IMG/VR virus record: IMGVR_UViG_3300022602_001925
Location: 1 to 37,559 of that record
Direction: 5' to 3' (one strand)
Length of the DNA stretch: 37,559 nt
DNA from: a virus
Shown here: piece after piece, positions 1,704 to 36,062 of the stretch
Position numbering within the stretch: the first letter of the stretch is position 1
How the letters are laid out: each line of letters begins with the position of its first letter
Program-made: the position numbers and the translations under genes
Notes under the pieces: model-generated
What the model was told of the DNA's origin: nothing
The model's database searches: none
What the model saw: the letters and a program-made list of their open reading frames with translations, nothing else

Positions 1704-3232
1704 TGACCTAAGCTATCAATCGCACTTTGTTCAGCAGGTGTCATTTCTTCGTATTCAACTTCTTTGCGTTGCATTCTACCTAACTGCCAGTGCTTCCAAT
1801 TTATATTCTCAGTATAGCTAGTATTTTGTTGTTTGTCAACAACAATCCACTCTGTACCATTCCATTTATATAGGTTATTTGGTTGAGTGTTCATAATAAA
1901 CAACTGTCCATTGTAAGGATTAGTTGGAAATTGACGACCGATAATATCTGTGTCTATATCAAGCAAATATGAACGAGCATCAATTCCTTCGGCTTCTTCA
2001 CGGAACATTTCTCGTTCAGCTTTAAGCTGATGAATCTCACGGTTCTTGACATCTATTTCTTTAAGCAATTGATCTAATGCAACTGTCAAATCCATCAATG
2101 TTTTGCTGTCTGTATTGTCTACAATCTTTTCAACTTCATGAATAATTTCAACAGGAACTTCTACCACTCGTTCAACAATAGTTTCAACGGGAACCTCAAC
2201 AATCTTTTCAAGAGTAGTTACTGTTGGAACTTCAACAATCTTTTCAATGATATTATCACGATAGATAGGAACAGCTTGCGTGATAACTCGTTCAATCACT
2301 TCTGGTTCACGGTTACGCAGTTCTTCTACTTCTTCTTGAAGGGCTTCTGCGCGAATAATAGCATCATTATTATATACGGTTACAATCTTTTCAACTGGAA
2401 CTTCTACAATAACTTCTTTTACAATTTCGTCTGTTTGTTCATCTTGCTCGCGCCGACTACCACTGATACCCATTGTTGCACCGAGAACCAAAGAGACCGC
2501 AAGAGGATCAAAGACAGCAACGATAAAAATAATAACCCAACGAACTGCTCGTTCAAGTAAAGACTTGTCAACATTATCTCCATATATTAATTGTGCAATA
2601 TATTTAATTGGTCCAACTTCGGCTTCAACTTTTAATTGTGCCTGATTAAGTTTTAACTTTTGACTATTCAAGTCTTGGATACGAGCATTGGTATCATCAA
2701 TAGTCTTGTTAGCTGCTTCACGATCTTTCTTTTGACTATCGCGCAATTTAGTTGCTTGCGTAGCCAATGTAGCTGTACGATTATTATCTTTTGTAGCATT
2801 AGATGCACTGCCGCTTAGCAATCCATTAACTGCATCATCCATCTGCTTGATAACAGCTTGATTATCTTTAATGCGTTGTTGCTCAACTGCAATGTTTTGA
2901 TCAATCTGCTCAATAAGAAGTGTATTATCGCCTACGCTGCTTGTAGTTTCAATATGTGCACGGCTAAGAAATCCAAAGATTCCCATAGATGTAACAAACA
3001 TCAACACAATAACAGCAATGGCAAGATACCATTTAACAATAAAGTTTACACGGTTCCAATTTTGATGCAACCATACTGTGGTAATAATCTTACCAAACTC
3101 TAACACACCGCCCATAATGATAATAGGGATAACTGCGCCACTGAATATGGCAGTGAGACCAGCAATACTATAATATGCAGCTACGCCACTAATACTAATG
3201 GCACTTAGGAGTGCTAAAATGTTTAAGAACAT
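1700..3232 (-). CDS. Membrane protein with long coiled coil and VEVPVE repeats
   Basis: This 510-aa protein has about four predicted membrane segments: two near residues 1-50, one near 70-90 (AIAVIVLMFVTSMGIFGFL) and one near 230-255. Between the third and fourth lies a charged coiled coil rich in Gln/Lys/Asp. After the fourth comes a repeat zone of Val/Glu/Pro units such as IVEVPVE and VVEVPVE (about 275-370), then another helix and a short domain containing YKWNGTEWIVVD, typical of phage structural or carbohydrate-binding modules. I place the start at 3232, where TAATG links it to the upstream stop; the longer frame to 3265 would begin inside that gene. The function is unknown. The layout suggests an envelope protein with a large cytoplasmic or periplasmic rod made during infection. 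Confidence 0.8.
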   Translation of the reverse strand: MFLNILALLSAISISGVAAYYSIAGLTAIFSGAVIPIIIMGGVLEFGKIITTVWLHQNWNRVNFIVKWYLAIAVIVLMFVTSMGIFGFLSRAHIETTSSVGDNTLLIEQIDQNIAVEQQRIKDNQAVIKQMDDAVNGLLSGSASNATKDNNRTATLATQATKLRDSQKKDREAANKTIDDTNARIQDLNSQKLKLNQAQLKVEAEVGPIKYIAQLIYGDNVDKSLLERAVRWVIIFIVAVFDPLAVSLVLGATMGISGSRREQDEQTDEIVKEVIVEVPVEKIVTVYNNDAIIRAEALQEEVEELRNREPEVIERVITQAVPIYRDNIIEKIVEVPTVTTLEKIVEVPVETIVERVVEVPVEIIHEVEKIVDNTDSKTLMDLTVALDQLLKEIDVKNREIHQLKAEREMFREEAEGIDARSYLLDIDTDIIGRQFPTNPYNGQLFIMNTQPNNLYKWNGTEWIVVDKQQNTSYTENINWKHWQLGRMQRKEVEYEEMTPAEQSAIDSLGQ

Positions 3233-3597
3233 TATATATTTACCTTGTTTTCTACCAGATACCAACCGATTTTCTTTAAATCTTCACGCACTTCTTCGTC
3301 AATCATACCTTCGGAAATATAACTGGCATCATCAACAAAACTTGCTGTATAATAACGCATATAATCGCCACTAAAAGAACCATCATATAAACCAGCAGCA
3401 ATACCGCCCGCATGACGCCAAGAGCAAGACCATTGTTCTGCTGCTAAAATTGATAGAACTTCTGCCTTAATAAATTCATTATTACAGAGCGTAGCATAAA
3501 GATGCTGACAATAGATATCGTTATTTCGTGCTTTATCACGAATATATTGGCTATCAAACAAATCTTGTTCAAGGTTTGGTTTGGGTTGATCAGTCAT
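3232..3597 (-). CDS. Hypothetical protein, 121 aa
   Basis: Acidic soluble protein with no recognised domain. It contains SILAAEQWSCSWRHAGGIAAGL and GDYMRYYTASF, a pattern I associate with conserved small proteins of T4-like phages. The start follows CACGGAG, a good ribosome site. Its stop codon overlaps the start of the membrane protein gene (TAATG). It is the first gene of the unit running down to guaC and lies divergent from the lipase gene. Confidence 0.78.
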   Translation of the reverse strand: MTDQPKPNLEQDLFDSQYIRDKARNNDIYCQHLYATLCNNEFIKAEVLSILAAEQWSCSWRHAGGIAAGLYDGSFSGDYMRYYTASFVDDASYISEGMIDEEVREDLKKIGWYLVENKVNI

Positions 3598-4955: not shown

Positions 4956-5229
4956 AACCCAAGAAATTACGCCGCTAGGCGCATTTCAAATGGAGCGTTA
5001 TCATTCGCTGCATTTACTTTTTTTGGTCTATAAAGCAACCAACCTACTATCTACTTCAACCCTTTCAACGTCAATCGATCCCTTGCTGGCCCATCAAAGA
5101 TACATCGGGTGTTCGGAAAAACCTATTACACCATATTTGTTCCGACTATGGAAACCAATGTATCTATGGTGGACCAGGAGGCAGTCGAAGCCTCGTCTTG
5201 CCCGCCTATTAGTTGCTATCAACAATAGT
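4956..5229 (-). ncRNA. ssrA: Circularly permuted two-piece tmRNA (alphaproteobacterial type)
   Basis: tmRNA rescues stalled ribosomes and tags the unfinished protein for proteolysis. In transcription order: the acceptor piece has a 5-bp T-stem GAGGC/GCCTC with T-loop TTCGACT (5178-5194), then CTGGTCC (5177-5171) and ACCA (5170-5167). An intervening segment (5166-5093) folds on an 8-bp stem (5158-5165 with 5098-5105). The coding piece opens with GGGCCAG (5092-5086), which pairs with CTGGTCC in a 7-bp acceptor stem that has G3-U70, the alanine identity pair. It is followed by GGATCGATTGACG, like the tmRNA D-loop region, a TTGGT/ACCAA stem (PK1 position), an A-run, and the tag frame GCG AAT GAT AAC ending CTA GCG GCG TAA (5008-4967). 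The tag reads ANDNAPFEMRLAA (one more Ala if GCA is the resume codon). A P5-like helix encloses the tag end. The exact processed ends are not visible. Confidence 0.93.
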
Positions 5230-10427: not shown

Positions 10428-11279
10428 TTAAAAATTACAATTTTTTTTACACTCTGGCCGTGAGTTAGTTTTTAATTCAGTTTCTATATCCATTTCGTTT
10501 GTATATTCAATATCTGAAATAAAACAACAAGTTGATATTCTACCATCAGCATTGATATATAAACTTGGATATTCTAAATGCATACATGATTTTCCCACAG
10601 CACTATGATTTGTTAAATTATCAGAAAACTTCACATAATTAGACCATAGTTTTAAATTTAATAATTTACCAGTTTTATAATGTCTGGCATTTAAATTTAC
10701 ACGTGGATTTTTTATAATTTTAAAACTGTGAAATTTTAATTTTTTACTTAATAAAAACGCTTCTTTTATTTGATGTTCGTTGTGTGCAAATGGTATAAAT
10801 TGCCATACAGCTTTTCCACCATTAGAAATAAAAGCATTTGCATTATCAATTATTTTATTATAATTTGTTCCTTGTCTATAAATCTCATGTGTATCTTCTA
10901 AACCATCTAATGCAAAGAAAACTAGATGTTCAATATTTTTAATTTTATTACCTAATTCGGCCCACCATTCTTGGGTTTTTAAACTTCCATTTGTATGGAT
11001 ATGAATAAAATATTTTTTAGAAATTAAAAAATCTAAAACCTCTAATATATTTTTTGCTGCAATAGGATCGCCATAATTTCCGCATATTTGAACAGTTTTG
11101 AGCATAGGAAGTGTATCAACTATTTCGCGAAGCCTTACTAAAGACAAGTCTCGTTCGATCAGCCCATCAACTAATTTAAATCCATCGACGTTTCTTGGAC
11201 ATGACGGACACCATGCATTGCATCTTGATGATAACTCAATGTGTATCCATTTTACAGTATTTAAAAATGGATTATTCAT
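10428..11279 (-). CDS. Radical SAM protein with SPASM-like C-terminus (RSAM1)
   Basis: This 283-aa protein has the radical SAM cluster motif Cys20-x3-Cys24-x2-Cys27 (CNAWCPSC) after IHIELSSR, then ICGNYGDP (the place of the GGEP strand), HTNGS and FALDGLEDTHEIYRQG. The C-terminal part has CMHLEYPSLYINADGRISTCCF and a final ECKKNC, a SPASM/twitch-like site for a further Fe-S cluster. Its closest relative in the window is the gene at 25252-26262. The substrate is unknown; SPASM enzymes often modify peptides. I chose the ATG at 11279, coupled to the zinc-ribbon stop by ATGAATAA, because a longer frame to 11396 would run through that small gene out of frame. Confidence 0.85.
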   Translation of the reverse strand: MNNPFLNTVKWIHIELSSRCNAWCPSCPRNVDGFKLVDGLIERDLSLVRLREIVDTLPMLKTVQICGNYGDPIAAKNILEVLDFLISKKYFIHIHTNGSLKTQEWWAELGNKIKNIEHLVFFALDGLEDTHEIYRQGTNYNKIIDNANAFISNGGKAVWQFIPFAHNEHQIKEAFLLSKKLKFHSFKIIKNPRVNLNARHYKTGKLLNLKLWSNYVKFSDNLTNHSAVGKSCMHLEYPSLYINADGRISTCCFISDIEYTNEMDIETELKTNSRPECKKNCNF

Positions 11280-11436
11280 CTTTAACCATACTTGGTTTTT
11301 CTGGTCGGTCGGCGCAATAATCACATTCTGGATCATTACATGTTTTTTCCAACCATATATCACATGCTTCACAATAATAAGCATCGTGTTTTTCATTATA
11401 TTTTTTTTCAGAATTGCAAGTCTTGCATTTCTTCAC
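11272..11436 (-). CDS. Small zinc-ribbon protein (GTG start)
   Basis: This 54-aa frame fits exactly between nrdB and the radical SAM gene. The GTG start overlaps the nrdB stop (GTGA), and its TAA overlaps the next ATG. It has the Cys pairs KCKTC (4 and 7), YCEAC (22 and 25) and C33, C38 and C41, which would bind one or two zinc ions, and ends with a charged tail. I recall similar small proteins beside nrdB in marine T4-like phages. The function is unknown; it may be a partner of the reductase or of the radical SAM enzyme. Confidence 0.78.
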   Translation of the reverse strand: MKKCKTCNSEKKYNEKHDAYYCEACDIWLEKTCNDPECDYCADRPEKPSMVKDE

Positions 11437-12536
11437 AGACTAAATCCACTGAATGAATTGCTATCAACATCTTGCTTGGTGCCACCAATAACATAAGATG
11501 AGATTTCTGTTTCTTGTGGCGCAACTTGAACTTCTGCACCAGCAATCCACTTCTGTGTCCAAGGCAGCGGATTATTCTTTGTAGGATATGGCTGACCGAG
11601 ACCAACTGCTTGCATACGCTTATTAGCAATAAACTCAACATATTCAGCAAGTAGTTGATAGTTCAAACCAATCATAGAACCATCCTTGAATAGATACTGC
11701 GCCCATGCTTTTTCTTGCTTAACTGCATCATCAAATAACTTGATAGCATCTTCACGACACTCTATTTCAATCTTGGCATATGCTGGATCGTCTTTTGGCA
11801 AGAGTTTTAATAGCGTTTGTGTACCAGCAAGATGCAGATTTTCATCACGAGCAATCAACTTAATAATCTTGGCATTGCCTTCCATCTTTTTCAATTCAGC
11901 AAATGCCCAGCTACATGCAAAAGACACATAAAAGCGAACACCTTCGAGAATGTTGACACTCATAAGGGCAAGCCAAAGTGCCTTCTTATGTTCATAAAGA
12001 GCATATTCGGGATGCTCTTTATCTGCAAAAAAATTATTCATAGTAATAAGTTTGTCATATAGTGCAGTAATATCGCCAGCGCAATCAACAATTTCTTGGA
12101 TGTCCATCATCTCATCAAATACTTTTGATGGATTAGCATACACATTACGAATGATGTGTGTATAACTGCGGCTATGAATAGTTTCACTAAATGTCCAAGT
12201 AGTAATCCAAGTTTCTAATTCTGGTAGAGAACAGATGGGACCAAACGCTACTGCTGGCGCACGACCTTGCACAGAATCAAGTAGTATTTGACGTTTTAGA
12301 TTGCTCGTAAAGATGTGTTGTTCATTGGGCGTTAAGTCTTTAAAATCTTTGGCATCACGAAGAATATCAACTTCTGTTGGCAACCAAAAAAACGACAATT
12401 GTTTTTCAGTAAGTTTTTCAAATTGACGATATTTCAAGGTATCATATCTTTGAATACTAACACCACCATTTGGGTCCAGAAACGCAAGTGATTTAGTGTG
12501 ATCGCTTTTGTCCATAGCATTAAAAACTGTCGTCAT
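11433..12536 (-). CDS. nrdB: Ribonucleoside-diphosphate reductase, beta subunit (class Ia)
   Basis: This 367-aa protein aligns along its length with E. coli NrdB. The diiron ligands are visible as Asp87 (ILLDSVQGRAP), Glu118 and His121 (SETIHSRSYTHI), Glu198 (LEGVRFYVSF) and Glu232/His235 (ARDENLHL). The radical Tyr is Tyr125. The C-terminal tail (YVIGG ... FSL) that docks on NrdA is kept. It works with the alpha subunit to make deoxyribonucleotides. The start lies inside the end of the homing endonuclease gene, with GGAG 8 nt upstream. The frame is complete. Confidence 0.97.
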   Translation of the reverse strand: MTTVFNAMDKSDHTKSLAFLDPNGGVSIQRYDTLKYRQFEKLTEKQLSFFWLPTEVDILRDAKDFKDLTPNEQHIFTSNLKRQILLDSVQGRAPAVAFGPICSLPELETWITTWTFSETIHSRSYTHIIRNVYANPSKVFDEMMDIQEIVDCAGDITALYDKLITMNNFFADKEHPEYALYEHKKALWLALMSVNILEGVRFYVSFACSWAFAELKKMEGNAKIIKLIARDENLHLAGTQTLLKLLPKDDPAYAKIEIECREDAIKLFDDAVKQEKAWAQYLFKDGSMIGLNYQLLAEYVEFIANKRMQAVGLGQPYPTKNNPLPWTQKWIAGAEVQVAPQETEISSYVIGGTKQDVDSNSFSGFSL

Positions 12537-13128
12537 ATTTTATTCTCCAACCTTTACAATGTCCTTTTGTCGCAGATTTAAAAGTTCCACGAATTGCTTG
12601 TTCTTTCAAACTTTGATATATTTTTTGTGTATTTTCTTTAAAGTGCGTTTCTACAAACTCTTTTAAGCATTTAGTATGCCATTCTTTACCTTCGTTGTCA
12701 ATAATCAAATAACTTTTTGAGTTTGGATTTTCGGAATAAGTTCTATCAACTCCATACATACCATTTTCTTGACCGTAGTGCGGCTTGTGGTTAGGGTGTT
12801 TTTTACCATACATTGGGTTTTTTTCACCAATATAATCTGCACCGTGATGTCCGCCATCAGAGTTTGGACTTATATTATAAAAGTCATTACTGGTTGCAGC
12901 TTGGTAAAAATCTAACCAATATTTTTCTCTTTGTTTTAACAAAGTGCGTGTCTCACAAATATCTAATATATTTCGTTCAAAGTTTTCTAAACCATATTTT
13001 TTTACAGCATGTTTAAAATACTTTCCAGAACCAATGTAGGAAGACGAAGGGTCTCCCCATCGTTTTCCTACATACTTCATTCCGTTTATTTTATTAGTCC
13101 AGATGTATATAAAACCAGAGTTTGGCAT
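12520..13128 (-). CDS. GIY-YIG homing endonuclease (Seg-like, NUMOD3)
   Basis: This 202-aa protein has an N-terminal GIY-YIG nuclease domain: GFIYIWTNKINGMKYVGKRWG, then KYFKHAVKKYG and a Glu in KQREKYWLDFY (about 70). It is followed by NUMOD3-type DNA-binding units (GEKNPMYGKKHPNH, GQENGMYG) and a C-terminal helical part. Free-standing enzymes of this type cut phage genomes lacking the gene and spread by repair. It lies between nrdA and nrdB, a common place for such genes, and overlaps the nrdB start by 17 nt. Its own promoter carries an exact late octamer. GGAG precedes the ATG. Confidence 0.92.
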   Translation of the reverse strand: MPNSGFIYIWTNKINGMKYVGKRWGDPSSSYIGSGKYFKHAVKKYGLENFERNILDICETRTLLKQREKYWLDFYQAATSNDFYNISPNSDGGHHGADYIGEKNPMYGKKHPNHKPHYGQENGMYGVDRTYSENPNSKSYLIIDNEGKEWHTKCLKEFVETHFKENTQKIYQSLKEQAIRGTFKSATKGHCKGWRIKYDDSF

Positions 13129-19362: not shown

Positions 19363-19971
19363 ATGGTATTTACCAGCACTAATCCGCCAAGCGGATATTA
19401 TGTATATGCTTATATAAGAAAATCAAATGGAACTCCATATTATATTGGCAAAGGCAAAAATAAAAGAGCTTGGAATACGAGACATAATGTATCGGTTCCA
19501 AAAGATCAATCTAAAATTATAATTCTTGAACATAATCTAACTGAAATAGGTGCATTAGCAATAGAACGGCGTATGATTGCGTGGTATGGTCGCAAAGATA
19601 TTGGCACTGGTATATTACATAATAAAACAGATGGCGGCGATGGAATAAGTGGATGGACACCATCTTTAGAAACTCGTTCTAAAATTAGTTCTTCAAAAAA
19701 AGGAAAACTCTTATCGGACGAGGCTAAAAGTAAATTAAATAAATTAAGAAAAGGCATAACTCATACAGAAGAAACAAAAACAAAAATTGCTAATTCAAGC
19801 AAAGGAAAAATTTTATCAGAAGAAACTAAAGCAAAAATTTCATATGCAAATAGTAACCGTTCTCCGTGGAATAAAGGAAAAACTGGCATTTATTCGGCAG
19901 AAGTTATTGCAAATAAATCTGCTGCCGCAAAAAAACAATGGGAAAAAATTATTCAGAGTAAAATTTTGTAA
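19363..19971 (+). CDS. GIY-YIG homing endonuclease with NUMOD3 repeats
   Basis: This 202-aa protein starts with a divergent GIY-YIG domain ([27 protein letters not shown], about 11-36) and a Glu in [11 protein letters not shown]. It then has repeated NUMOD3-like units with the pattern S-x-E-T-K-x-K-I-S/A ([43 protein letters not shown]), expected to bind DNA. It is on the opposite strand from its neighbours and overlaps the end of the PD-(D/E)XK gene by 23 nt. AGAGGA lies 10 nt before the ATG. It is probably an inserted selfish gene, different in sequence from the endonuclease at 12520-13128. Confidence 0.88.
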
Positions 19972-25251: not shown

Positions 25252-26262
25252 TTATGCAGTTTCTAATTTACCACAGGCAATATCACACTGTATTAAACGA
25301 CCATCTTTGACACTTGTTTTAGTCCAACTTGATTCTACTTTACTGAACCAACGTATGGCTTCTTCAAGAGTTGTTTCATGCAAATTGTTATTTTGTATTA
25401 ATGGTTTAATTTGGGAATTAACAAATCCGTGAAACCCTTTATCATAAGTAAGAGGACTAAACCCCATAAAACAACATGGATATACACGACCGTCAGCAGC
25501 AATATAAATTGAATTATTTTTTTTTGTAAAACAACTTAATTTTCTATTTGGATCATAAGGAGGATAACCATATTTTTTTGTAGAATCTCCATGAAATTCA
25601 ATAATTTCATTTATCTCAGTGTGTGCTTTCCAATCACCCATAACATGAACTAGATTGCCCTTGCGGTCAAATACTGGCCCACTGTTTCGTCCATGATCGA
25701 CTAAATTGAACTCATGGAAACCATATTCTTTACTGCGTTGTTCTGCTTCGAAGATTTGATGTTGGTTGTGATCAAATTTAATCATTTTCCACATAGTACG
25801 ACCGCCAGCAGCCATATAGGTTTTTGCGTTCTCAATTATTTTATTAAAATCTGTATCTTGTCGATATAAATGATGAGTATCTTCTAGCCCATCTAAGCAA
25901 AATTCAACAGTCGTGTTTGGTATCTCACCAAGTTCTGCCCAAAATTCACGATTTCTTGCACTGCCATTGGTGCTTATTTGTATTTTTAAATTAGGGTTGC
26001 ATGATGCAAAATATTTGAGAATAGGCAATGATTCTAAATTAGCAGTAAAATCTCCAAAGTTTCCATTAACCAATATGTTGCCCAATTGTTTTATAAAATC
26101 TGGACTAAATGATTTTTGCATTAATTCTAATGATAAACTTGTTTCTTCATATCCACGATTATAAGGATAACCGTATAAATTTCTAGGACATAGTGGACAA
26201 CGAGCATTGCATAAGCTACTAAATTCTATATGAAGATGTTGTATTTTTTCTAACTGAATCAT
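25252..26262 (-). CDS. Radical SAM protein with SPASM-like C-terminus (RSAM2)
   Basis: This 336-aa protein is a clear relative of the enzyme at 10428-11279. The cluster motif is Cys18-x3-Cys22-x2-Cys25 (CNARCPLC), followed by NGNFGD, ISTNGSARN and FCLDGLEDTHHLYRQDTDFNKI. The C-terminal part has SCF ... IYIAADGRVYPCCFMGF and a late QCDIAC, likely ligands of an auxiliary Fe-S cluster. It is about 50 residues longer than RSAM1, mainly by an insert before the DGRV site and a C-terminal helix region. Substrate unknown. It is divergent from RSAM3, separated by 26 nt with a palindromic TATTTAAATA. No ribosome site is seen. Confidence 0.87.
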   Translation of the reverse strand: MIQLEKIQHLHIEFSSLCNARCPLCPRNLYGYPYNRGYEETSLSLELMQKSFSPDFIKQLGNILVNGNFGDFTANLESLPILKYFASCNPNLKIQISTNGSARNREFWAELGEIPNTTVEFCLDGLEDTHHLYRQDTDFNKIIENAKTYMAAGGRTMWKMIKFDHNQHQIFEAEQRSKEYGFHEFNLVDHGRNSGPVFDRKGNLVHVMGDWKAHTEINEIIEFHGDSTKKYGYPPYDPNRKLSCFTKKNNSIYIAADGRVYPCCFMGFSPLTYDKGFHGFVNSQIKPLIQNNNLHETTLEEAIRWFSKVESSWTKTSVKDGRLIQCDIACGKLETA

Positions 26263-26288: not shown

Positions 26289-27572
26289 ATGAATAATATT
26301 GAAAACAAATTAAGAAAGCGTGGGGAATTTTTCTGTCCTGCCAAATGGGAAGAATTATACCTTTATCTCAATCATGGTAATACTAATAGTTGCCACCATC
26401 CTATACCTCATGCAATACCAATAGAAGAAGTTATTAATAATCCTGCTGCATTACATAATACCTCTCATAAATTATCTGTGCAGCAGCAAATGCTTGATAA
26501 CGAAACGCCAGCAGAATGTCATATGTGTTGGCATCTTGAACAAAAAAATATTACAAGTGATAGATTTATTAAATCAGAAACATGGGAAGATAGCATTGCA
26601 ACACTGGAAGTTAATCCAGATCATGTTCCAAAATTTATTGAAATAGTATTTGACAATTTATGTAACTTAAATTGCAGCTATTGCGACAGTGGACAAAGTT
26701 CTAAATGGGCTGGCATCTTGGAAAAAACTGGCGCATGGAATTTAAATTCAGATACTCGTGATTTGTACAATAAAGTTCATATAAAACCTAATAGTATAAA
26801 GCAAGAATATCTAGATGCTTGGAATATATGGTGGCCACAGATTAAAAGTAAAGTACAAACACTTAAAATAAGTGGCGGTGAACCATTGATTAGTCCTAAC
26901 TTTTGGCGTACAATGGATCAACTTGAACCAAATGATAATAATCTTAGTATAGCATTAAACAGCAATCTTTCAGTAGATACAAAATATATAGAAAAACTTA
27001 TTGAGTATTCACCCAAAATTAAAAAAATAAGAATAGCAGCTAGCATTGATTCAGTTGGAAAGATTGCTGAATTTACTCGTGGTGGCCTAGATTATAATTT
27101 GTTTTGTAAAAACATTCATTATTGGTGTGCAAATAGTCCAGATAATTGTTTCTTAAATTTACAAAGCACTGTAAATGTGTTTAATATCTGGAATATCACA
27201 GATAAATTTGACTTGCACTTAGAATTAAAACAACAATATGGCGATAAAGTTACAGATTTTTACAGTACTCTTGTTAGATTTCCTGAGTTTCAAAGCATAT
27301 TAGTGTTACCTTATGCGCTAAGATCAATGCTTTATGAAAAAATATCTATATGGTATGATGCTAATATTCAGAAGTTTACCAACAAAGAAAAAATTTATAT
27401 CGATAAAACATTTCAATATTTAATTTCAGAAGATGATTCAGTAAACCAAAATAATAAACTAATATACAAAAACGACCTTAAAAACTTTATCAAAAAGTAT
27501 GAAGGATTTACAAAATACAAATTTAAAGATGTTTATCCTATTGAATTTGTAAACTGGTTAGAACAACCATGA
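26289..27572 (+). CDS. Twitch-type radical SAM protein (RSAM3)
   Basis: This 427-aa protein has an N-terminal Cys/Trp-rich part (FCPAKWEELYLYLNHG, SCHHP, then AECHMCWHLEQ at about 76-85) like the twitch segment found before the radical SAM core in related phage proteins. The core begins at FDNLCNLNCSYC (Cys125, Cys129, Cys132), with ISGGEPLIS at about 194-202 for SAM binding, and LNSN and ASIDSVG strands. The C-terminal 100 residues are helical. On the plus strand, it overlaps the end of RSAM4 by 15 nt. It is related to RSAM4 in layout. Function unknown. Confidence 0.85.
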   Translation: MNNIENKLRKRGEFFCPAKWEELYLYLNHGNTNSCHHPIPHAIPIEEVINNPAALHNTSHKLSVQQQMLDNETPAECHMCWHLEQKNITSDRFIKSETWEDSIATLEVNPDHVPKFIEIVFDNLCNLNCSYCDSGQSSKWAGILEKTGAWNLNSDTRDLYNKVHIKPNSIKQEYLDAWNIWWPQIKSKVQTLKISGGEPLISPNFWRTMDQLEPNDNNLSIALNSNLSVDTKYIEKLIEYSPKIKKIRIAASIDSVGKIAEFTRGGLDYNLFCKNIHYWCANSPDNCFLNLQSTVNVFNIWNITDKFDLHLELKQQYGDKVTDFYSTLVRFPEFQSILVLPYALRSMLYEKISIWYDANIQKFTNKEKIYIDKTFQYLISEDDSVNQNNKLIYKNDLKNFIKKYEGFTKYKFKDVYPIEFVNWLEQP

Positions 27573-28697
27573 ATAAATTTCAGGAAATATTTGTTCAAAT
27601 GATTCTTTTCTATAATTGTCGTGTAATTTAATATTTTCTCTAAATTTCTCTAACAATGCAGTGTCATCTGCATCTAACCATTGGCTAATATTTTGCAAAT
27701 CTTCATGTTTGCTAGTTAATAATTTATTCTTGATGATTTCTTTATACTGAGTTGGAAATATAGAACATCTATAATATTCTGGCTTGGATAGTTTACCCAA
27801 CCATGGCTTTGGTAGTTCGTTATCCAGAAAGTATGTAAACATTTCGTCAAGATAATAAATTGTAAACACACTAACGGTGGTGCTAATGCTTAACTGCATG
27901 TTAAGTCTAAGATTAATATAATCTCTATACTTTATTAAGTTTTCTTTAACATCATCCCAGTTAGCATTTTTTCTGTTGTATTCAAATCGTGCGCCAATAT
28001 CATCTATACTAGGTTGAATATCAATCCATCCTAGTTTGTCAAATATATCCCAATATTTCTGATCTGGAAACACAGTGCCGTTTGTATTATAATGTAATCT
28101 AATTTTTTTAGCATTGGGCGAACTAGAAATTTTTTCTAGTATTTCTAAATGCTTCTCATTATCATATAAGAATGGTTCACCACCATGTAAATGCAGTTCT
28201 AATATGTCATCTGTCATATTCAATAATGATTGCCATACTGAGGCATCATTTGCCCAATTTGCTATCTTATATTTTATATTATAGATATCTTGAAATTCTT
28301 TCTTCCAACTACTGCTTGAATTAGGACTACAAATTCTACATTTTAAATTGCATATGTTTCCAAGTGGCAACGTCAATAGCAGTGTATTTGATGCGGTTAA
28401 CTCAAATTCATCAAATTCTTCTTTCCAACGGTCATAATCCATTTGACGTTTACTTGGATAGTTTGCTGCTTCATCTTTCCAACAACGGTCACATGCTATT
28501 GGTTTATCACCAGATAAAAAAGATTCTTTTAATTTGGTTAATCCGTTGCTCTTTTTATAATCATCAATGGAAATTTCATTGATATTATAACCTTCCCATC
28601 CATCCGCAGTTTTTACATTAAACTTGCAGCAAGGTCTAATAGTTCCGTTATTATCTATATCAAGACCAGTCCATGGTTGGTGACAAAATGATTGCAT
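27558..28697 (-). CDS. Twitch-type radical SAM protein (RSAM4)
   Basis: This 379-aa protein begins with FCHQPWTGLDIDNNGTIRPCC, a SPASM-like site at the N-terminus, and ACDRCWKDE (about 69-76), then the core motif NICNLKCRICSP (Cys116, Cys120, Cys123), LHLHGGEPFLY (about 168-178) and HYNTNGT. The C-terminal part is helical. The N-terminal cluster site followed by the core is the arrangement named twitch-domain radical SAM. It is two bases after the helicase stop and may be expressed with helicase and primase. Substrate unknown; a protein or peptide is possible. Confidence 0.87.
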   Translation of the reverse strand: MQSFCHQPWTGLDIDNNGTIRPCCKFNVKTADGWEGYNINEISIDDYKKSNGLTKLKESFLSGDKPIACDRCWKDEAANYPSKRQMDYDRWKEEFDEFELTASNTLLLTLPLGNICNLKCRICSPNSSSSWKKEFQDIYNIKYKIANWANDASVWQSLLNMTDDILELHLHGGEPFLYDNEKHLEILEKISSSPNAKKIRLHYNTNGTVFPDQKYWDIFDKLGWIDIQPSIDDIGARFEYNRKNANWDDVKENLIKYRDYINLRLNMQLSISTTVSVFTIYYLDEMFTYFLDNELPKPWLGKLSKPEYYRCSIFPTQYKEIIKNKLLTSKHEDLQNISQWLDADDTALLEKFRENIKLHDNYRKESFEQIFPEIYSWLF

Positions 28698-28699
28698 TG

Positions 28700-30106
28700 T
28701 TACGGCTTCTGTTTAAGATTACTTAACATCTGACGCAGCGCACTGCTGTTTACATCTGCGGCAACTTTGCCAACAGGTTCATCTGGTGCCATATCAGTGA
28801 CTGGTTTAGTGTTGCTGCCATTCTTAATACTGGCAAATATATTACTTCCAGTCTTCTTAAACTGTTGATCGTTGCTATCATCTGGCATATCACGAATACG
28901 CAAGCTATCAATATCAAATTCAAGTTCAACCTTTTGACCAACACCACTGGATGAACGAGTTTTCATTAACTGTAACTGATATTTGCCATGTTCACGCATA
29001 CTACGAGATGTAAAGATACCAAACAAGTTATCTGCGGTGTTAATCTTAGAAATACCACCAGAAATATGACTATGGTCAAACTCTACTTCTTCAACACTAG
29101 CACGGTTTAACTGTGATGCAGTGACAAGAAGAATATCCATTTCCTTTGCAAAGTTACGAATTTCTTCACTAACATACTTGTCCTTAACAAACAAATCACT
29201 TGGGCTAACCTTGGCACTAACTGGCATGAGTAGGTCAAGGTAATCGATCATAACAAAGTCAACACGACGACCACTACGAATTTGCAATTCTTTGATATAT
29301 GCACGAACATCATTGATATTACTCTGTGCTGGCATATACTTGATTTGCAATTTGCCGCTCTTTTTACCAAGCATCTTAACTTTAACTTCAATATCTTCAA
29401 TATTCTTAAAGATGTCCTTAGATGGCGTATTAGTTAGCATGCCATCAATACGCATTGCAGTCAATTCTTCACTCAACTCAAGCGTGATATAAACACCGTT
29501 AAGACCCATCAATACCCAGTTACATGCAATATTCTGCATAAACAGTGATTTGCCCGAACCCGAACCACCAGCAAAGATATTCAATTCACCACGATTAAAT
29601 CCGCCATACAGTTTTTGATCAAGTGTATTCCAACCTGTGCTAGTTTGTCCGTTATTATCTTTAATCTTGGTAAGGCGAGCAATAGGATCAAGAAAGTAAT
29701 CTGTGCCAAGGTCTTTGGTCAAGCTGATTTGCACTGCATCTTTAATAATCTTTTCAACAGGATCAAAGTCACCTTTTTCTAACATATCAGCAGCTTTGAG
29801 GATTGCTCGTTCAAGTTCTTTTTGTTTGGTAAATCCTTCAAACTCACTCAAGAACCAACCAATATGTTCTTCGGTCATGCCAGTTATTGGCTGAAAGATA
29901 TTGTTGGTAGCAGCATTAATCTGCTCATGCAGCGGCATGACAGTATGCTTCTCACAGTGTTCTTTGATAAAATCTGCTGCACTCTTCAAACTACGATCAA
30001 AGTTATTTGGATTAAAGATATTCTGTACCCGCACATAGCTTTGCGGATCACTGAGCATCATTTCGATGAATAACTTTTGTATTGCCGAGTCATAATTTTT
30101 GGACAT
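28700..30106 (-). CDS. Replicative DNA helicase (T4 gp41/DnaB family)
   Basis: This 468-aa protein has an N-terminal helical domain (about 1-130) and a RecA-like core: Walker A AGGSGSGKS (about 179-187), TLELSEELTAMRIDG, Walker B DFVMIDYLDLL (about 287-297), ASQLNR, and a late QLQLMKTRSSSG region. The last 60 residues are low-complexity. It would unwind duplex DNA 5' to 3' at the fork as a hexamer together with the primase encoded two genes upstream. The ATG has no ribosome site and follows a promoter -10 by five bases. Confidence 0.95.
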   Translation of the reverse strand: MSKNYDSAIQKLFIEMMLSDPQSYVRVQNIFNPNNFDRSLKSAADFIKEHCEKHTVMPLHEQINAATNNIFQPITGMTEEHIGWFLSEFEGFTKQKELERAILKAADMLEKGDFDPVEKIIKDAVQISLTKDLGTDYFLDPIARLTKIKDNNGQTSTGWNTLDQKLYGGFNRGELNIFAGGSGSGKSLFMQNIACNWVLMGLNGVYITLELSEELTAMRIDGMLTNTPSKDIFKNIEDIEVKVKMLGKKSGKLQIKYMPAQSNINDVRAYIKELQIRSGRRVDFVMIDYLDLLMPVSAKVSPSDLFVKDKYVSEEIRNFAKEMDILLVTASQLNRASVEEVEFDHSHISGGISKINTADNLFGIFTSRSMREHGKYQLQLMKTRSSSGVGQKVELEFDIDSLRIRDMPDDSNDQQFKKTGSNIFASIKNGSNTKPVTDMAPDEPVGKVAADVNSSALRQMLSNLKQKP

Positions 30107-30140: not shown

Positions 30141-30709
30141 TAACTAGTTAGAGACTTGCATAATCTATTAATCTTTGGTTCAAAAAATTTTAAATTAACA
30201 CAACGAATATAATAATCTTTCTTAATTTCTCGCAATCTTGAATAATTATTTTCTACCAATAATTTAAAAATATCGGTTAGATAATAATGAGTTGCATTTT
30301 CAAAATTTTTCAAGATATATCTTTTCCAATAGAAAAATTCTCGTAAAATCTTGCACCAAGTAATAAAAAACTCATTTGGTAATTCAAAATTATATGGAAC
30401 ATTGATATTGTTAAATTCATTTTCAACAATATATGTACTTGCCATCGCAATCGTCTTATCTTCTCTTTCTGTTACAATAATCTGATCAAATAAATGCCAT
30501 GGAATTTTATCAGATTTAACTTCTTTTAAAAAATCTGATGCCATTATTTTTACAACATAATCATCTGCATATAATTTCTCATATAATGCTTCATCAAATG
30601 TCTTATGATCAAACCACTCGCCAAGATTTTCAATATTATGCTTTTCTGCTAGCAGATTGCACAAAACTGAACTGCCACTGCGCTGATGTGAAAAAACACA
30701 TATTCTCAT
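30137..30709 (-). CDS. Sulfotransferase-like protein
   Basis: This 190-aa protein opens with RICVFSHQRSGSSVLCNLLAE, the 5'-phosphosulfate-binding loop of the PAPS-dependent sulfotransferase fold (R-S-G-S-S/T). The strand IIVTEREDKTIAMAS (about 75-90) fits the 3'-phosphate site of Stf0-like enzymes. The rest is helical and Lys/Phe-rich. It could sulfate a host or phage glycan or lipid; a kinase-like role is less likely because there is no GxxGxGK loop. The start ATG overlaps the primase stop (ATGA), which is why I prefer it to the codon at 30718. Confidence 0.78.
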   Translation of the reverse strand: MRICVFSHQRSGSSVLCNLLAEKHNIENLGEWFDHKTFDEALYEKLYADDYVVKIMASDFLKEVKSDKIPWHLFDQIIVTEREDKTIAMASTYIVENEFNNINVPYNFELPNEFFITWCKILREFFYWKRYILKNFENATHYYLTDIFKLLVENNYSRLREIKKDYYIRCVNLKFFEPKINRLCKSLTSY

Positions 30710-31707
30710 TGAAACCACCTTTTAGAATGCAATTGAATCTTTAATGTATTAGTATGCGCATTGTCAAGAATGCTACGCATAGTAAACAGTTGACCATACT
30801 TAGCAACAGCATCGGCAACATCTTTAATACCACTTTCCCAATCAGGAAATGATACACCCCATCCATATTTTAACGCAGCATCAACCATTGCTCCACCAGC
30901 CTTATCACGGTCGGGGACAACAATGATATCACGGTCAAGTGTTTCAATGACCTGTGCCTGACCATCATTAATTTCATTCGAACAGATTGCAAGCGCACCG
31001 ATAGCAACTGCATCTAACAAACCTTCTACTACAATACAAAACTGTGCATCCTTATGCTGTCGATCATAACCCCATATCATATTGCTTGGGTAATTAGAAA
31101 AGTATTTAATTTTCTTTTTACCATCTTCAAATAAACGCCCACTAAAACCCATAGGTTTATTTTTCCACGTAAATGGAACAAGCACACGGTTACGCAATGC
31201 TGCATCATCTGTCCAATAGAACTCATGCAACTTATCACTGAAACCACGAGCGTCAAGATAATTGATAGCCGCTTCAAGAGAATTATAATCCTCTTCATTG
31301 ATATAACCATCGTTTAACCAACTTGTGATAGGACGACCAGGACATGGGTCACGAGGCTCATAAGTTGGCAACTCACGGGGTTCAATAACCGTTGGTTCAT
31401 AGCTTTCTTGACTGATTGCAAATAGAGCAAGACGACCAATTTCATCTTCGCCCATGCCAAGCCACGCCATCCAACGCCGCATCTTATAAGAAAGACGACG
31501 ACCTGGCTGCCAAGAAGCAGTGTAATGGCAATTAAAGCAATGAGCAGTTATACCGCCGTCTGGCGATGGCATAACGCCGCCACGACCACGAGTATCCGCT
31601 GTATGACCATTATGATGGCAGCAGACAGCATTGAAGCTTATCCAGCCGCTAGGCGTGGATTTGCGCTTCCATGGCAGATGCTGCATGATTTGGTCAGTAA
31701 TTTCCAT
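30706..31707 (-). CDS. DNA primase (T4 gp61-like)
   Basis: This 333-aa protein has an N-terminal zinc-binding part with VCCHHNGH and HCFNCHY (about 29-62), a middle domain with RNRVLVPFTWKNKPMGFSGR (about 171-190) and a Toprim core: CIVVEGLLDAVAIGA with the catalytic Glu and DIIVVPDRDKAGG with the paired Asp residues. Thus it should make short RNA primers for lagging-strand synthesis with the helicase. The ATG at 31707 has no ribosome site and is exactly where transcription from the near-consensus promoter should begin. Confidence 0.94.
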   Translation of the reverse strand: MEITDQIMQHLPWKRKSTPSGWISFNAVCCHHNGHTADTRGRGGVMPSPDGGITAHCFNCHYTASWQPGRRLSYKMRRWMAWLGMGEDEIGRLALFAISQESYEPTVIEPRELPTYEPRDPCPGRPITSWLNDGYINEEDYNSLEAAINYLDARGFSDKLHEFYWTDDAALRNRVLVPFTWKNKPMGFSGRLFEDGKKKIKYFSNYPSNMIWGYDRQHKDAQFCIVVEGLLDAVAIGALAICSNEINDGQAQVIETLDRDIIVVPDRDKAGGAMVDAALKYGWGVSFPDWESGIKDVADAVAKYGQLFTMRSILDNAHTNTLKIQLHSKRWFQ

Positions 31708-31713
31708 TAAACT

Positions 31714-31742
31714 AATATAACAGATTTATAACAATCTGTCAA
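31714..31742 (-). promoter_or_regulatory. Strong sigma70-like promoter of the primase (leaderless)
   Basis: TTGACA (31742-31737), a 17-nt spacer and TATATT (31719-31714), then AGTTTA and the ATG at 31707. It is the best sigma70 match in the window and its expected +1 is the A of the start codon. Confidence 0.78.
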
Positions 31743-32527
31743 GGGCGATAATAGATATAATTCATTGCACCATTGGTCTGCGTAATTTTAAACCGAATGG
31801 CACGATATTTGCCTTGGAAATTAAAGTAGGTATTGCCAGTATAATTAGTAAGTGTTTGGTATGATACAGTTGAATATGCGTTAGAATCAATGGTAACAGC
31901 GCCATCCAAACTTGCCTGTAATTCAACATTGCCAGTAAAAGCATTAGCTTGATACTGCACAGTTTGGTATACTGCCACGCCACGAACATAGTTAGATGTT
32001 AGAAAGCTACTTGTGTATGCGACATTCTTATATTGGGTATCACTATTATTCGTGTAAACAAACGCATTTGCTGAATAGCTTGGAGTAAATTTTGGATAAA
32101 CTGCATCCAATATTCTCGCTTGTCCTTGTGCATTATAGTTGTCATCGGAGAATACAATCTCTTGTTGACCTTCGCCATTGGTAACAACAATGCTATAATT
32201 ATAATTGCCAGGATCAATATCATCTAGCACACTGCCTTCAATAAGGCAAGTTGCAACGCCATCTGCGGTATAAACTAGGTTAAGATTGCGAGTTAACACT
32301 AATTGTTGATTGGTGATACTGAAAAGGTTAAATAAAACTGTGCTTTGCAAAAGGCTCACAGGTTTTTGGTCGCTGTCTTTGATAACGAACTTGAATCTGT
32401 TATCTACACCTTTATAAATTTGAAGTGGCTTCGCGTAAAACAACTGATTCTCCCTATCAAGCGTTAGGTCACTGTTCTTAACAACGTTTATAATTTGTGG
32501 ATATAAATAACCGTAAATTTGCTGCAA
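31739..32527 (-). CDS. Baseplate/tail structural protein (BppU-like N-terminus, TTG start)
   Basis: This 262-aa protein is rich in Asn, Tyr, Thr and Val, without Cys except one. Residues about 25-130 (YAKPLQIYKGVDNRFKFVIKDSDQKPVSLLQSTVLFNLF) resemble the immunoglobulin-like N-terminal domain of phage baseplate upper proteins. The C-terminal half (VRGVAVYQTVQYQANAFTGNVELQASLDG) is a beta-sandwich-like module. It is probably a tail or baseplate part. The start is TTG, with AAGGG nine bases upstream, and a late octamer precedes it. Confidence 0.75.
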   Translation of the reverse strand: MQQIYGYLYPQIINVVKNSDLTLDRENQLFYAKPLQIYKGVDNRFKFVIKDSDQKPVSLLQSTVLFNLFSITNQQLVLTRNLNLVYTADGVATCLIEGSVLDDIDPGNYNYSIVVTNGEGQQEIVFSDDNYNAQGQARILDAVYPKFTPSYSANAFVYTNNSDTQYKNVAYTSSFLTSNYVRGVAVYQTVQYQANAFTGNVELQASLDGAVTIDSNAYSTVSYQTLTNYTGNTYFNFQGKYRAIRFKITQTNGAMNYIYYRP

Positions 32528-32554: not shown

Positions 32555-32926
32555 ATGATTTCACTTGAACAAATGCTTGAACAATATCCGTTCCTAACTT
32601 ATATAAAATATCCTACCGCTGACTATATCGGCATCATACAAAATCATGATATTGATATTGTTTCAATGTATGCTTTTAATAAGCTACGAACCGAAGAAGA
32701 CAAGCGAGGGTTCCTAGAAGCAGCAGAAATATGGTGGTGGGAATCGAATAGACTAATTCCTATTAATATATTCTTAAAAAATAACTGGGATAAGTTTCGT
32801 TACAGTACAGTAACCTTAACAACAAAAGATATTCGTGAACAACACGGTCATATCGTTTCAATAGCTAAACTAGCAGAACGCAGAACCAAGCGCCGTGTTG
32901 TTCAATTAGTCAAACGCCTCGCATAA
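32555..32926 (+). CDS. Hypothetical protein, 123 aa
   Basis: A mostly helical protein with EAAEIWWWESNRLIPINIFLKNNWDKFRYS, then a basic C-terminal part (AKLAERRTKRRVVQLVKRLA) that could bind nucleic acid. No family is recognised. No ribosome site precedes the ATG, and no plus-strand promoter is clear. It overlaps the end of the mini Pol III alpha-like gene by 21 nt, tail to tail. Confidence 0.72.
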   Translation: MISLEQMLEQYPFLTYIKYPTADYIGIIQNHDIDIVSMYAFNKLRTEEDKRGFLEAAEIWWWESNRLIPINIFLKNNWDKFRYSTVTLTTKDIREQHGHIVSIAKLAERRTKRRVVQLVKRLA

Positions 32927-33466
32927 CAAATTCATATGAACCATCACTAACAGTGCGTAACTATATGAGTGGGATTTCTTAAAGTAATAGCCTTCACTTG
33001 GCTTGTCCCAAATCTCAGCAGCAATTTCTTTCCATCGTTTACCAATCAAATATCTCTTCGCTGGCCGTATAAGAGCCAATACCATTGCAAGCTTATCAAG
33101 TGTGTCTGGATAATGTTGCAATATGATATCATGATGATTCCCAATGTGAACGACTCTGGCACAGAACTCTTTATCCTTTAATTTTTCCCACTGCGGTTCT
33201 TTTGCAACCAACGCATCTAAATGCGCATTATCTCGCACAAGATTATATACTGAATTATTCAGTAAATCTAGTTTCATATATCCTAATTCTTCGGCAGCAT
33301 CATAATCTATGTTAGCTAACCCTGTAATTGGATTAAATGGAATAGGATTAACATAAACACCGCTGTTATGCTTGACAATAACACCATCACGATTAATAGA
33401 CGCAGGAATATGCTTGATAATCTTTAAGATATTGTTTCTATCACTTAAATCTATGTCAATATCCAT
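32906..33466 (-). CDS. Miniature DNA polymerase III alpha-like protein
   Basis: This 186-aa protein keeps, in order, short motifs of the bacterial Pol III alpha (DnaE) catalytic region: MDIDIDLSDR at the start (compare D-F-D-V-D-F), VKHNSGVYV at about 31-39 (compare GKHAGGVVI), GYMKLDLL at about 62-69 (compare LVKFDFLGL), LAMVLALIRPA at about 126-136 (compare LVALVALFRPG) and GYYFKKSHSYSYALL at about 159-173 (compare FNKSHAAAYAL). The three catalytic Asp positions seem kept. The PHP, thumb, clamp-binding and OB parts are absent; DnaE is over 1000 aa. Whether it polymerises DNA is unknown. The start is coupled to the upstream end by overlap with TAA-ATGG spacing. Confidence 0.72.
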   Translation of the reverse strand: MDIDIDLSDRNNILKIIKHIPASINRDGVIVKHNSGVYVNPIPFNPITGLANIDYDAAEELGYMKLDLLNNSVYNLVRDNAHLDALVAKEPQWEKLKDKEFCARVVHIGNHHDIILQHYPDTLDKLAMVLALIRPAKRYLIGKRWKEIAAEIWDKPSEGYYFKKSHSYSYALLVMVHMNLLCEAFD

Positions 33467-33727: not shown

Positions 33728-33984
33728 GCCCACCTCATTAAGAATAAGTTACGTTCTTCATCATTCATAAATGCTAATATCATACCTTTTTGTGACCATG
33801 CTGTCAAGGAAGAATTGCACCAGTTGGCAATTTCAAGTTCATTAATAATATAATATGTTGGATCAGCAATAACAAGAATACTACTATTCTTCATCAAGTC
33901 TATGGCGCTCATAGAATCAATATCATAAGTTAAATCACGAACCTGTTTTAAAGATGGCGTTGCCACCACAAATCGCTGTGACAT
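33724..33984 (-). CDS. Hypothetical protein, 86 aa
   Basis: Small alpha/beta protein: FVVATPSLKQVRDLTYDIDSMSAIDLMKNSSILVIADPTYYIINELEIANWC ... FLMRWA. No family recognised. It is linked to the upstream zinc-finger gene by TAATG and to the downstream gene by ATGA, so it is one link in a chain of coupled genes. Confidence 0.7.
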   Translation of the reverse strand: MSQRFVVATPSLKQVRDLTYDIDSMSAIDLMKNSSILVIADPTYYIINELEIANWCNSSLTAWSQKGMILAFMNDEERNLFLMRWA

Positions 33985-34709
33985 TATAAACCTGCTTGTG
34001 CTAGGATATGACGAGTCATTTCAGTATCAGCAGCATAATCTTTTAGCTTCTTTGTCCAGAACTGCGGATCAATCCAACGAGAAAGTAAGTTAAGTTGTTC
34101 CTCAGATAGTGAATCAAACTTATCAATGCCATTATCGCAGCAATAAATTGCCCAACAACTAATGCGACCATTAAGAATATGCTGAACAAAACGATTGGCA
34201 CTTACTTTATTAAAGTAATCATTAAATTCATTGCCAGTGTCTTCTGCCCATTCTTGCATAGTAATAATAGATCGTTCTAGCGCATCAGTGCTGCTTTCTT
34301 GGCGCAGCAGTGTATAAAGATATTCTTCATATACCTTGTCTTTGCACCAGTTATCAATTTTGATTTGGTTCTTTAATACATAATCCATAAATTGTTTAAC
34401 ATTGATTGCACTGATTGCAACACAGTGTCGCCCAAACTTTACAAATGCATTATAAAAGTTGTTATTGCAAAAATCATCATATGATTTTAACTTGGCACTG
34501 CCTTGTGTAAGTTCATAGAACCGTAGCCATGTTTGGAAGCCAATGATGACGCCCTTCTCGCCACGCTGCAAGTCACGGCGCTTAGGTTCGCATTGATGAA
34601 CAGCTAATGTGCTTTCACGCACAAATCCTTGCCCACAATATTTGCATATGTGTTCACCAGGTTTAAACTCTTTTCTTGCTTCAATAGCTATTTTACGCAA
34701 TTCGTCCAT
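33984..34709 (-). CDS. C2H2-type zinc-finger protein, 241 aa
   Basis: After a short helix (MDELRKIAIEARKEF) comes one zinc-finger-like unit, HICKYCGQGFVRESTLAVHQCEPKRR (about 20-44), with Cys, Cys, His, Cys spacing suited to zinc and a basic tail suited to DNA. The long C-terminal part is helical, with FQTWLRFYELTQGSAK, VNRFV-like ANRFVQHILNGRISCWAIYC and DPQFWTKKLKDY. I recall such proteins from T4-like marine phages, without a known role. The ATG at 34709 has no ribosome site but follows TATAAT by six bases; a longer frame to 34838 would lie inside the deacetylase gene. Confidence 0.75.
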   Translation of the reverse strand: MDELRKIAIEARKEFKPGEHICKYCGQGFVRESTLAVHQCEPKRRDLQRGEKGVIIGFQTWLRFYELTQGSAKLKSYDDFCNNNFYNAFVKFGRHCVAISAINVKQFMDYVLKNQIKIDNWCKDKVYEEYLYTLLRQESSTDALERSIITMQEWAEDTGNEFNDYFNKVSANRFVQHILNGRISCWAIYCCDNGIDKFDSLSEEQLNLLSRWIDPQFWTKKLKDYAADTEMTRHILAQAGL

Positions 34710-34715
34710 CTTGTA

Positions 34716-34724
34716 ATTATAACA
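34716..34724 (-). promoter_or_regulatory. Extended -10 promoter of the zinc-finger gene (leaderless)
   Basis: TGTTATAAT (34724-34716) is a consensus extended -10, followed by TACAAG and the ATG at 34709. No good -35 is seen. Confidence 0.6.
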
Positions 34725-35247
34725 GTTTTTGTGCGGCAGGGGTAATAAAATATTTCCACATACGCAAATCAAATCCACGAATAACTTCTTCATGCAGTGG
34801 AAGTTCACTTGGGTCATATGGCGGTGTTGGTGTGCCAATTAAGTGATTATAATAGTCTGGATAACTTCCAAAATATACTTTTGGTGTGGCAATAAAATTG
34901 GTTACTTTGTGGATAAACATATGGTGAGGATGACCATACTCACCTTTCTCATTATGTGTTAGTATAATATCTGCGCCATCGCATAAAGCACGTATCCACT
35001 GTTCTGCATCACCATTATTAAATCCTGTTTTACCCTTTTCAACACTTTCCCAATTATCGGGCATACCACAAAATTTTGTGCGAATACCACGGCGTTCCCA
35101 GAATTGAGAAATCTCTGCTCCACGAGGATCGGTTCGTTGATAGGTAAGATAACATATCGTCCAATCCCAATCACTGTGTTCCATTATGAATTGGTAGGCA
35201 AAGATTGCGCAATCATCTGGATGAGCAACCATACATACCGCTTTCAT
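34717..35247 (-). CDS. PIG-L/LmbE-family deacetylase
   Basis: This 176-aa protein has the family hallmarks: VAHPDD at about 7-12 with the zinc-binding His and Asp, ILTHNEKGEYGHPHH at about 95-109 with the second zinc site, and FGSYPDYYN. Such enzymes remove N-acetyl groups from GlcNAc-containing substrates. The start overlaps the stop of the glycosyltransferase (ATGA), so the two probably act on the same glycan. It could modify host surface sugars or a phage glycoconjugate (inference). The protein is a little shorter than typical members (about 220-250 aa). Confidence 0.9.
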   Translation of the reverse strand: MKAVCMVAHPDDCAIFAYQFIMEHSDWDWTICYLTYQRTDPRGAEISQFWERRGIRTKFCGMPDNWESVEKGKTGFNNGDAEQWIRALCDGADIILTHNEKGEYGHPHHMFIHKVTNFIATPKVYFGSYPDYYNHLIGTPTPPYDPSELPLHEEVIRGFDLRMWKYFITPAAQKLL

Positions 35248-36062
35248 ATGCGTTCCTTTACAAATTCATCCCATGCGTTGCGTTGGTCAGCATCAAGAAG
35301 TTTATAAGCACGAGGATGCACACTTGCAGTAAGTGTGTTTGGTTGGTGAACTCTTTTCCACCAGATATTGAAGTTTGGCACATCATAGTCTGCTAGGTTA
35401 GCAACATCAATTATTTGTTCACCAGTATACAAATCATCAAAGTTTCCTTGTTTAGTTACCCATGCACTATAACATAGAAACTCAGTAATTCCATTAATAT
35501 TAAATTCACAATTACTTTCAAACCAGTTTATAAAATCAGGTTCTTCATAAACCATTTCTTTCATTGTTTGAACATCTGCAAGAAATGGTACACCAGCAGG
35601 ACTTAACCAATCAATGCGTGATATGTTATAATGTGTTTTAAGATATTCAATTCCACGATTCCAATGAGTATGTGGAATATCCCAAATTGCAAATCTTGCA
35701 CGGTTATACTGGTCAAAAATTTCTTCAAGTTGAAATGGACGAATAAACCATGTCTTGGCATCAAGTATCATGCACCATTTACTTTCTGCATGTGCACTGC
35801 CAAGTATCTTGCATACTTGCTGAGTATACCAACCTGTCAAATGAGGCGATGGATAATAACCAAACTCGCTACGATGAAATATGCGAACTTTATAACCAAG
35901 ATCGCCATACCACCTTACGTCAATATCGTCATGAGTTAGCGTGTCATCATTTAGTATGACATATATGTTTTGTATTTCATGATAAAAGTAATAAGACATA
36001 CTATATGCTTGATGTTCAAGCAAATGTAATTCATCACGATAAACAACAGTTAACAAGTCCAT
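35244..36062 (-). CDS. Probable glycosyltransferase (GT-A-like)
   Basis: This 272-aa protein has a nucleotide-sugar-binding style start (DLLTVVYRDELHLLEHQAYSMSYYF, IQNIYVILND), a WYTQQVCKILGSAHAESKWCMILDAKTWFIRPF segment (about 79-111) with an acidic D-A-K in the place of the DxD metal motif, and later NINGITEFLCYSAWV (about 188-203). The pattern resembles the DUF6492-type glycosyltransferases. It is translated with the PIG-L deacetylase by ATGA overlap. The sugar and acceptor are unknown. Confidence 0.78.
   Translation of the reverse strand: MDLLTVVYRDELHLLEHQAYSMSYYFYHEIQNIYVILNDDTLTHDDIDVRWYGDLGYKVRIFHRSEFGYYPSPHLTGWYTQQVCKILGSAHAESKWCMILDAKTWFIRPFQLEEIFDQYNRARFAIWDIPHTHWNRGIEYLKTHYNISRIDWLSPAGVPFLADVQTMKEMVYEEPDFINWFESNCEFNINGITEFLCYSAWVTKQGNFDDLYTGEQIIDVANLADYDVPNFNIWWKRVHQPNTLTASVHPRAYKLLDADQRNAWDEFVKERI

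Follow-up and report, generated by a model that had tools for sequence, protein, structure and literature searches.

A 186-residue phage protein as the C-terminal unit of a split minimal DNA polymerase III alpha

A split minimal DNA polymerase III alpha has already been described in the group 2.2 jumbo phages (Iyer et al. 2021, PMC7824862). In these T4-like phages, of the RaK2 and Atu_ph07 types, a stand-alone C-terminal unit binds Mg2+ and the template, the NTP-binding N-terminal unit is encoded by a distant gene, and a family B polymerase accompanies the two. An ancestral state was proposed for the minimal Pol III alpha in the same study (Iyer et al. 2021, PMC7824862). Full-text literature searches of open-access papers returned no experimental work on the split polymerase. 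The two units correspond to PHROG 11778 (C-terminal unit, hereafter C-unit) and PHROG 11127 (N-terminal unit, hereafter N-unit), library entries which, as returned, do not name them as halves of one enzyme.

The stretch of DNA analysed here, called the window, is a 37.6-kb fragment of a phage genome. The original prediction placed in it a 186-aa ORF carrying DnaE motifs in the right order, and this ORF was indeed found on the minus strand, with its ATG at 33466 and its stop codon at 32908-32906. The sequence AAGGTGG stands just 5' of the ATG, directly behind the preceding ORF. As predicted, the protein is less than one fifth as long as DnaE, reaching 16% of the length of the E. coli enzyme (186 versus 1160 aa). 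The features of the gene are as follows.

32906..33466, minus strand: C-unit ORF, 186 aa, the C-terminal, metal- and template-binding unit of a split minimal DNA polymerase III alpha
33449..33463, minus strand: codons of D2-I-D4-I-D6 (E. coli D401-F-D403-V-D405), with the first two catalytic aspartates; unchanged in 100/100 covering members
33266..33268, minus strand: codon of D67 (E. coli D555), the third catalytic aspartate, within K65-x-D67-x-L69, from the family alignments
32957..32977, minus strand: codons of K164-S-H166-S-Y-S-Y170 (E. coli K758-S759-H760...Y764), from the family alignments

Five motifs follow one another as in DnaE: D2-I-D4-I-D6, K32-H33-N-S-G36-V37, K65-L-D67-L-L69, IRP (133-135) and K164-S-H166-S-Y-S-Y170-A-L. 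Alignment with PDB sequences equated D2, D4 and D6 with E. coli D401, D403 and D405, and K65 and D67 with K553 and D555. The predicted aspartate pair was thus present as a motif, but its assignment had to be corrected: the catalytic pair is D2 and D4, D6 being the conserved D405. The order of the motifs exceeds chance. The four-motif pattern did not arise once when the protein was shuffled 200,000 times, and the C-unit scored 12.5 bits against a DnaE profile when the best of 2,000 shuffles reached 5.3. A spacing-aware version of the pattern selected 101 of the 10,838 stop-to-stop frames in the collected loci, all 101 of which belonged to the C-unit family.

Pfam and PDB sequence searches with the single protein gave nothing useful, and profiles and structure were needed to establish homology. 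The full length of the C-unit matched PHROG 11778 ('DNA polymerase'; E 1e-60), while matches to the DnaE families were weak. Profile-profile comparison, which had been proposed as a check of the polymerase assignment, matched it to cellular DnaE (E 2e-6, probability 89%). Relatives in other T4-like phages, which it had also been proposed to look for, were found, for example in RaK2 and Atu_ph07. In all, tblastn matches were obtained in 68 phage records, four of which, from Lactobacillus phages, matched at the KSH end only. The jumbo phages concerned include PA5oct, Atu_ph07, Phosso, RaK2, 121Q, GAP32, CBB, SCTP-2, XacN1 and Stenotrophomonas CM1; the gene also occurs in a smaller phage, Slicko01 (141 kb). 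IMG/VR contained at least 597 confirmed homologues. Many genome records label the protein hypothetical or 'putative membrane protein', an annotation that merits correction.

We first examined conservation by aligning 22 diverse members, which are 32-94% identical to the window protein. Columns without any change were D2, D4, I5, D6, H33, G36, P43, K65, D67, L69, W93, P120, A131, I133, R134, P135, K137, H166 and Y170. When the set was enlarged to 103 distinct sequences, about 100 of which cover the positions, D2, D4, D6 and D67 were present in every covering member. The C-unit is a stand-alone protein that begins at the DxD motif and carries the three catalytic aspartates, in keeping with the type sought (about 190-215 aa, beginning at DxD or just ahead of it). 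Pairwise dN/dS was 0.08-0.12 against five relatives, most of which approach saturation at synonymous sites; a sixth relative was saturated. Judged from these substitution patterns, the C-unit is under purifying selection and is not a relic.

The AlphaFold2 model of the C-unit, built with 76 family sequences, had a pLDDT of 93.9. In a Foldseek search of the PDB with this model, the best 16 matches were all DnaE or PolC, with modest E-values (2e-3 and above). VIA-align placed C-family polymerases in all of its top 15 rows (Z 5.9-9.1), the next row being unrelated (Z 3.3). Nearly all of these rows spanned model residues 1-186, against E. coli 401-780 or PolC 972-1295, and the top row, 3f2b (PolC/DNA/dGTP), covered 182 residues at 3.5 A. 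The predicted structure is therefore like DnaE/PolC, and like these only, over its whole length. It has the palm/fingers fold of a C-family polymerase, and not the unrelated or palm-less fold that would have contradicted the original prediction.

Several parts of a polymerase are missing from this chain. It starts at the residue matching P400/D401 and has no GS (phosphate-binding) motif. Where DnaE has 106 residues of thumb region (D405 to H511) the C-unit has 27, and the part of the fingers that runs from the RP to the KSH motif (R639 to K758) has 30 residues instead of 119. Missing too are the YQEQ and ADxLRRAMGKK blocks, which in full-length DnaE vary hardly or not at all.

The GS motif is carried by another protein, the N-unit, of about 175 aa (PHROG 11127, labelled 'DNA polymerase'), which we located by searching complete relatives, first with Pfam PF07733 and afterwards with a family profile. 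By profile it was present in 12 of the 12 phage records examined (complete or long), all of which also matched a family B polymerase (PolB). The Atu_ph07 N-unit matched PHROG 11127 with an E-value of 2e-70, and the sequence GxGRGS was unchanged among the members. In a PDB profile search the N-unit aligned to E. coli 322-392, ending at the residue matching L392. Residues 78-177 of its model corresponded to E. coli 279-393, C-family polymerases standing well above all other fold matches. Since the N-unit ends at L392 and the C-unit begins at D401, the cut in the palm falls in the interval from 392 to 401 (E. coli numbering). The homology of the N-unit rests on these PDB profile and fold searches; a profile comparison with alignment A6 was discarded, as it matched only the one-piece row of that alignment.

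By our count, 62 of the 64 records with a C-unit also matched the N-unit by tblastn. One of the two exceptions was Slicko01, whose N-unit was recovered by profile; the other was record PP728206, of 109 kb. The upstream neighbour of the C-unit in Slicko01 was considered as a candidate and rejected, since by eye it has no GS motif, the true match lying at 79.0-79.3 kb. Two weak matches among the other contigs with a C-unit (G002, G023) were also rejected; they came from the GS motif of a separate one-piece DnaE-like protein of 567-582 aa. Conversely, 10 of 18 long contigs with an N-unit carried a C-unit, and the others may be incomplete. The distance between the two genes was about 15-34 kb in the XacN1, CM1 and RaK2 types and 182 kb in Atu_ph07. 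No fused or adjacent pair was seen in the loci carrying either unit, and these loci thus gave no Rosetta-stone evidence. Neither an N-unit nor a family B polymerase was found within the 37.6-kb window, and among 12 other contigs with a C-unit the N-unit was found only in the 354-kb contig of L117. The window being a fragment, its own phage presumably carries an N-unit gene elsewhere.

We counted the neighbours of the C-unit gene over 106 loci, many of which are truncated. In the window these neighbours are the following.

32555..32926, plus strand: 123-aa ORF (PHROG 11637, a label without function), convergent with the C-unit and overlapping its 3' end; on the opposite strand in 101/106 loci
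31739..32527, minus strand: virion structural protein-like ORF; 92/106 loci
30706..31707, minus strand: DNA primase (gp61-like); 67/106 loci
28700..30106, minus strand: DnaB-like replicative helicase (gp41-like); 62/106 loci
33984..34838, minus strand: PHROG 11058 protein, the upstream neighbour of the C-unit; 87/106 loci

The order C-unit, PHROG 11637, virion protein, primase, helicase was shared, with small variations, by the window and by Atu_ph07, Phosso, PAC2 and RaK2. The C-unit thus lies in a replication-gene neighbourhood, as sought for the C-terminal unit of a split minimal Pol III alpha, and the N-unit gene is often close to the clamp loader.

Other features of these loci are given as observations. 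In two close relatives, the one-piece DnaE-like polymerase (567-582 aa, without PHP) adjoins the helicase gene on the opposite strand, at L022:262-1965 (minus; contig IMGVR_UViG_3300022602_000130) and L213:7509-9257 (minus). By eye the protein is nearly identical in the two, although their C-units differ more, and the gene may be a recent insertion; no counterpart lies beside the window helicase (around 28700). Upstream of the window C-unit are overlapping genes for a PIG-L-type deacetylase-like protein (34717-35247, minus) and a DUF6492 protein (35244-36062, minus), and L025 and L213 have a comparable pair of genes. The window encodes four radical-SAM proteins (10428-11396, 25252-26262, 26289-27572 and 27558-28697), two with SPASM, three of the genes standing side by side after the helicase gene. 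A permuted tmRNA gene at 4967-5229 (minus) was detected with Rfam RF04321 (84.6 bits, cut-off 47) and missed by ARAGORN. Its tag frame reads AANDNAPFEMRLAA*, which we take to be of the kind found in Alphaproteobacteria and which would hint at an alphaproteobacterial host. Two ORFs that by eye look like GIY-YIG/NUMOD proteins, at 12520-13128 (minus) and 19363-19971 (plus), lie one between two ribonucleotide reductase-like genes and the other beside a tail-fibre-like gene.

Taken together, the results indicate that the C-unit is probably the C-terminal subunit of an active split minimal C-family polymerase, used by a T4-like jumbo phage as an accessory to its family B replicase. The three aspartates that bind metal, and what little is left of the fingers, would come from the C-unit, and the GS (triphosphate-binding) motif with the remaining palm from the N-unit; jointly the two chains would fold into a single active site of about 360 aa. 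Lacking PHP, thumb, clamp-binding and tau-binding parts, the pair would be non-processive and would probably synthesise short DNA stretches only, or add a few nucleotides, beside the family B replicase, for instance by extending primers or filling gaps at the primase/helicase/clamp-loader complex. Physical assembly of the pair, its polymerase activity and this role are inferred; the invariant aspartate triad strongly suggests that the pair is catalytic. Templated, processive synthesis is uncertain, since the loss of YQEQ, ADxLRRAMGKK and the thumb makes template following doubtful. The protein had been described as looking like a compressed Pol III alpha core. Its palm and fingers homology was borne out, but it is not a complete core, being one half of a split one.

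The loss of the thumb and of the YQEQ/ADxLRRAMGKK fingers, with retention of the metal- and phosphate-binding motifs, would also fit an active nucleotidyltransferase that is not a templated polymerase and that, like other Pol-beta-fold NTases, extends DNA or RNA ends by one or a few nucleotides in end repair or tailing. Many RNA and DNA end-repair NTases are known in jumbo phages (Iyer et al. 2021, PMC7824862). However, the palm, the IRP motif and the KSHxxxYA fingers motif, all specific to the C family, are kept, and the C-unit gene sits with primase and helicase, the N-unit gene often near the clamp loader. We regard such a nucleotidyltransferase as rather unlikely. The suggestion of a minimal nucleotidyl-transfer enzyme was nonetheless the best of the three originally offered, provided that it is read as a two-subunit enzyme rather than a single chain.

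The other two suggestions, a regulator of host Pol III and a relic, fared less well. A non- or partly catalytic factor that sits on primer-template or replisome sites and thereby modulates either host Pol III or the family B enzyme of the phage might be envisaged since the C-unit has no GS motif, which makes it unlikely to be an active NTase alone, and since a family B polymerase is already present in 12/12 relatives examined. A pure regulator would not need the catalytic aspartates, which are unchanged in every covering member. The C-unit has none of the parts by which alpha binds host factors (clamp, tau, PHP/epsilon), and the co-occurring phage N-terminal half makes regulation of the host enzyme less likely still; no positive support for it was found, and we consider a modulator of either kind improbable. 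Decay of an ancestral dnaE gene of the phage into a relic could account for a protein with 16% of DnaE length left and many domains gone, but not for an invariant active site, a dN/dS of about 0.1, the hundreds of IMG/VR homologues and a synteny conserved over distant phages, so that this explanation appears highly improbable.

If the two units of the split polymerase do rebuild an active site, they would define the minimum for C-family polymerisation. Such an enzyme would be, as far as we know, the first two-gene split-palm C-family polymerase assembled without an intein.

The dnaE gene of Lactobacillus phage ATCC 8014-B2 (gp099/gp101) bears on the origin of the split, as it is interrupted inside PD|IDTD, within 1-9 residues of the C-unit split point. 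The interruption, at 2453-3462 of this locus (L210), is a probable group I intron, and the record annotates two DNA polymerase genes. Exon 1 would end in TATCCAGAT (YPD) and exon 2 would begin with ATTGATACAGAT (IDTD). The insert gave two group-I-intron-like matches (E 1e-4 and 2e-3), both below the Rfam gathering score, and holds an ORF with a NUMOD3 motif. In contrast to the C-unit, this dnaE is presumably spliced and, apart from the insert, it is of full length and includes PHP, thumb and fingers. One phage has an intron-like element in the very motif at which the polymerase of another is split. This coincidence makes gene fracture plausible, and suggests by analogy, the phage groups not being close, that the split arose from a once whole dnaE rather than by ancestry. 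We advance tentatively, with more doubt than belief, the fuller proposal that the pair is a working thumb-less two-gene polymerase of about 360 residues, derived from a phage dnaE fractured at PDxDxD and not the survivor of an ancestral minimal replicase. We know of no C-family polymerase smaller than a working pair of this size would be. Such a pair would also put to the test two opposite accounts of minimal Pol III, as a relic of an ancestral state (Iyer et al.) or as the product of gene fracture.

Compared with DnaE and PolC (PDB 2hnh, 2hpi, 3f2b), the C-unit has the palm, part of the fingers and the three catalytic aspartates, and shares the motifs KHxxG, KxD, RP and KSHxxxY in the same order. 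It differs from them in that no GS motif is joined to a complete palm in one chain, and in that PHP, thumb, full fingers, HhH, OB and beta (clamp)- or tau-binding parts are absent. Compared with the system of Iyer et al., the window member comes from an uncultivated phage and its partner is not visible in the fragment. The window ORF is the C-terminal unit of the split polymerase that these authors described, and hence of a known kind rather than a new discovery. To that description the present analysis adds the exact split point, the invariance of the catalytic residues over about 100 members, the structural match and the co-occurrence counts of the two units.
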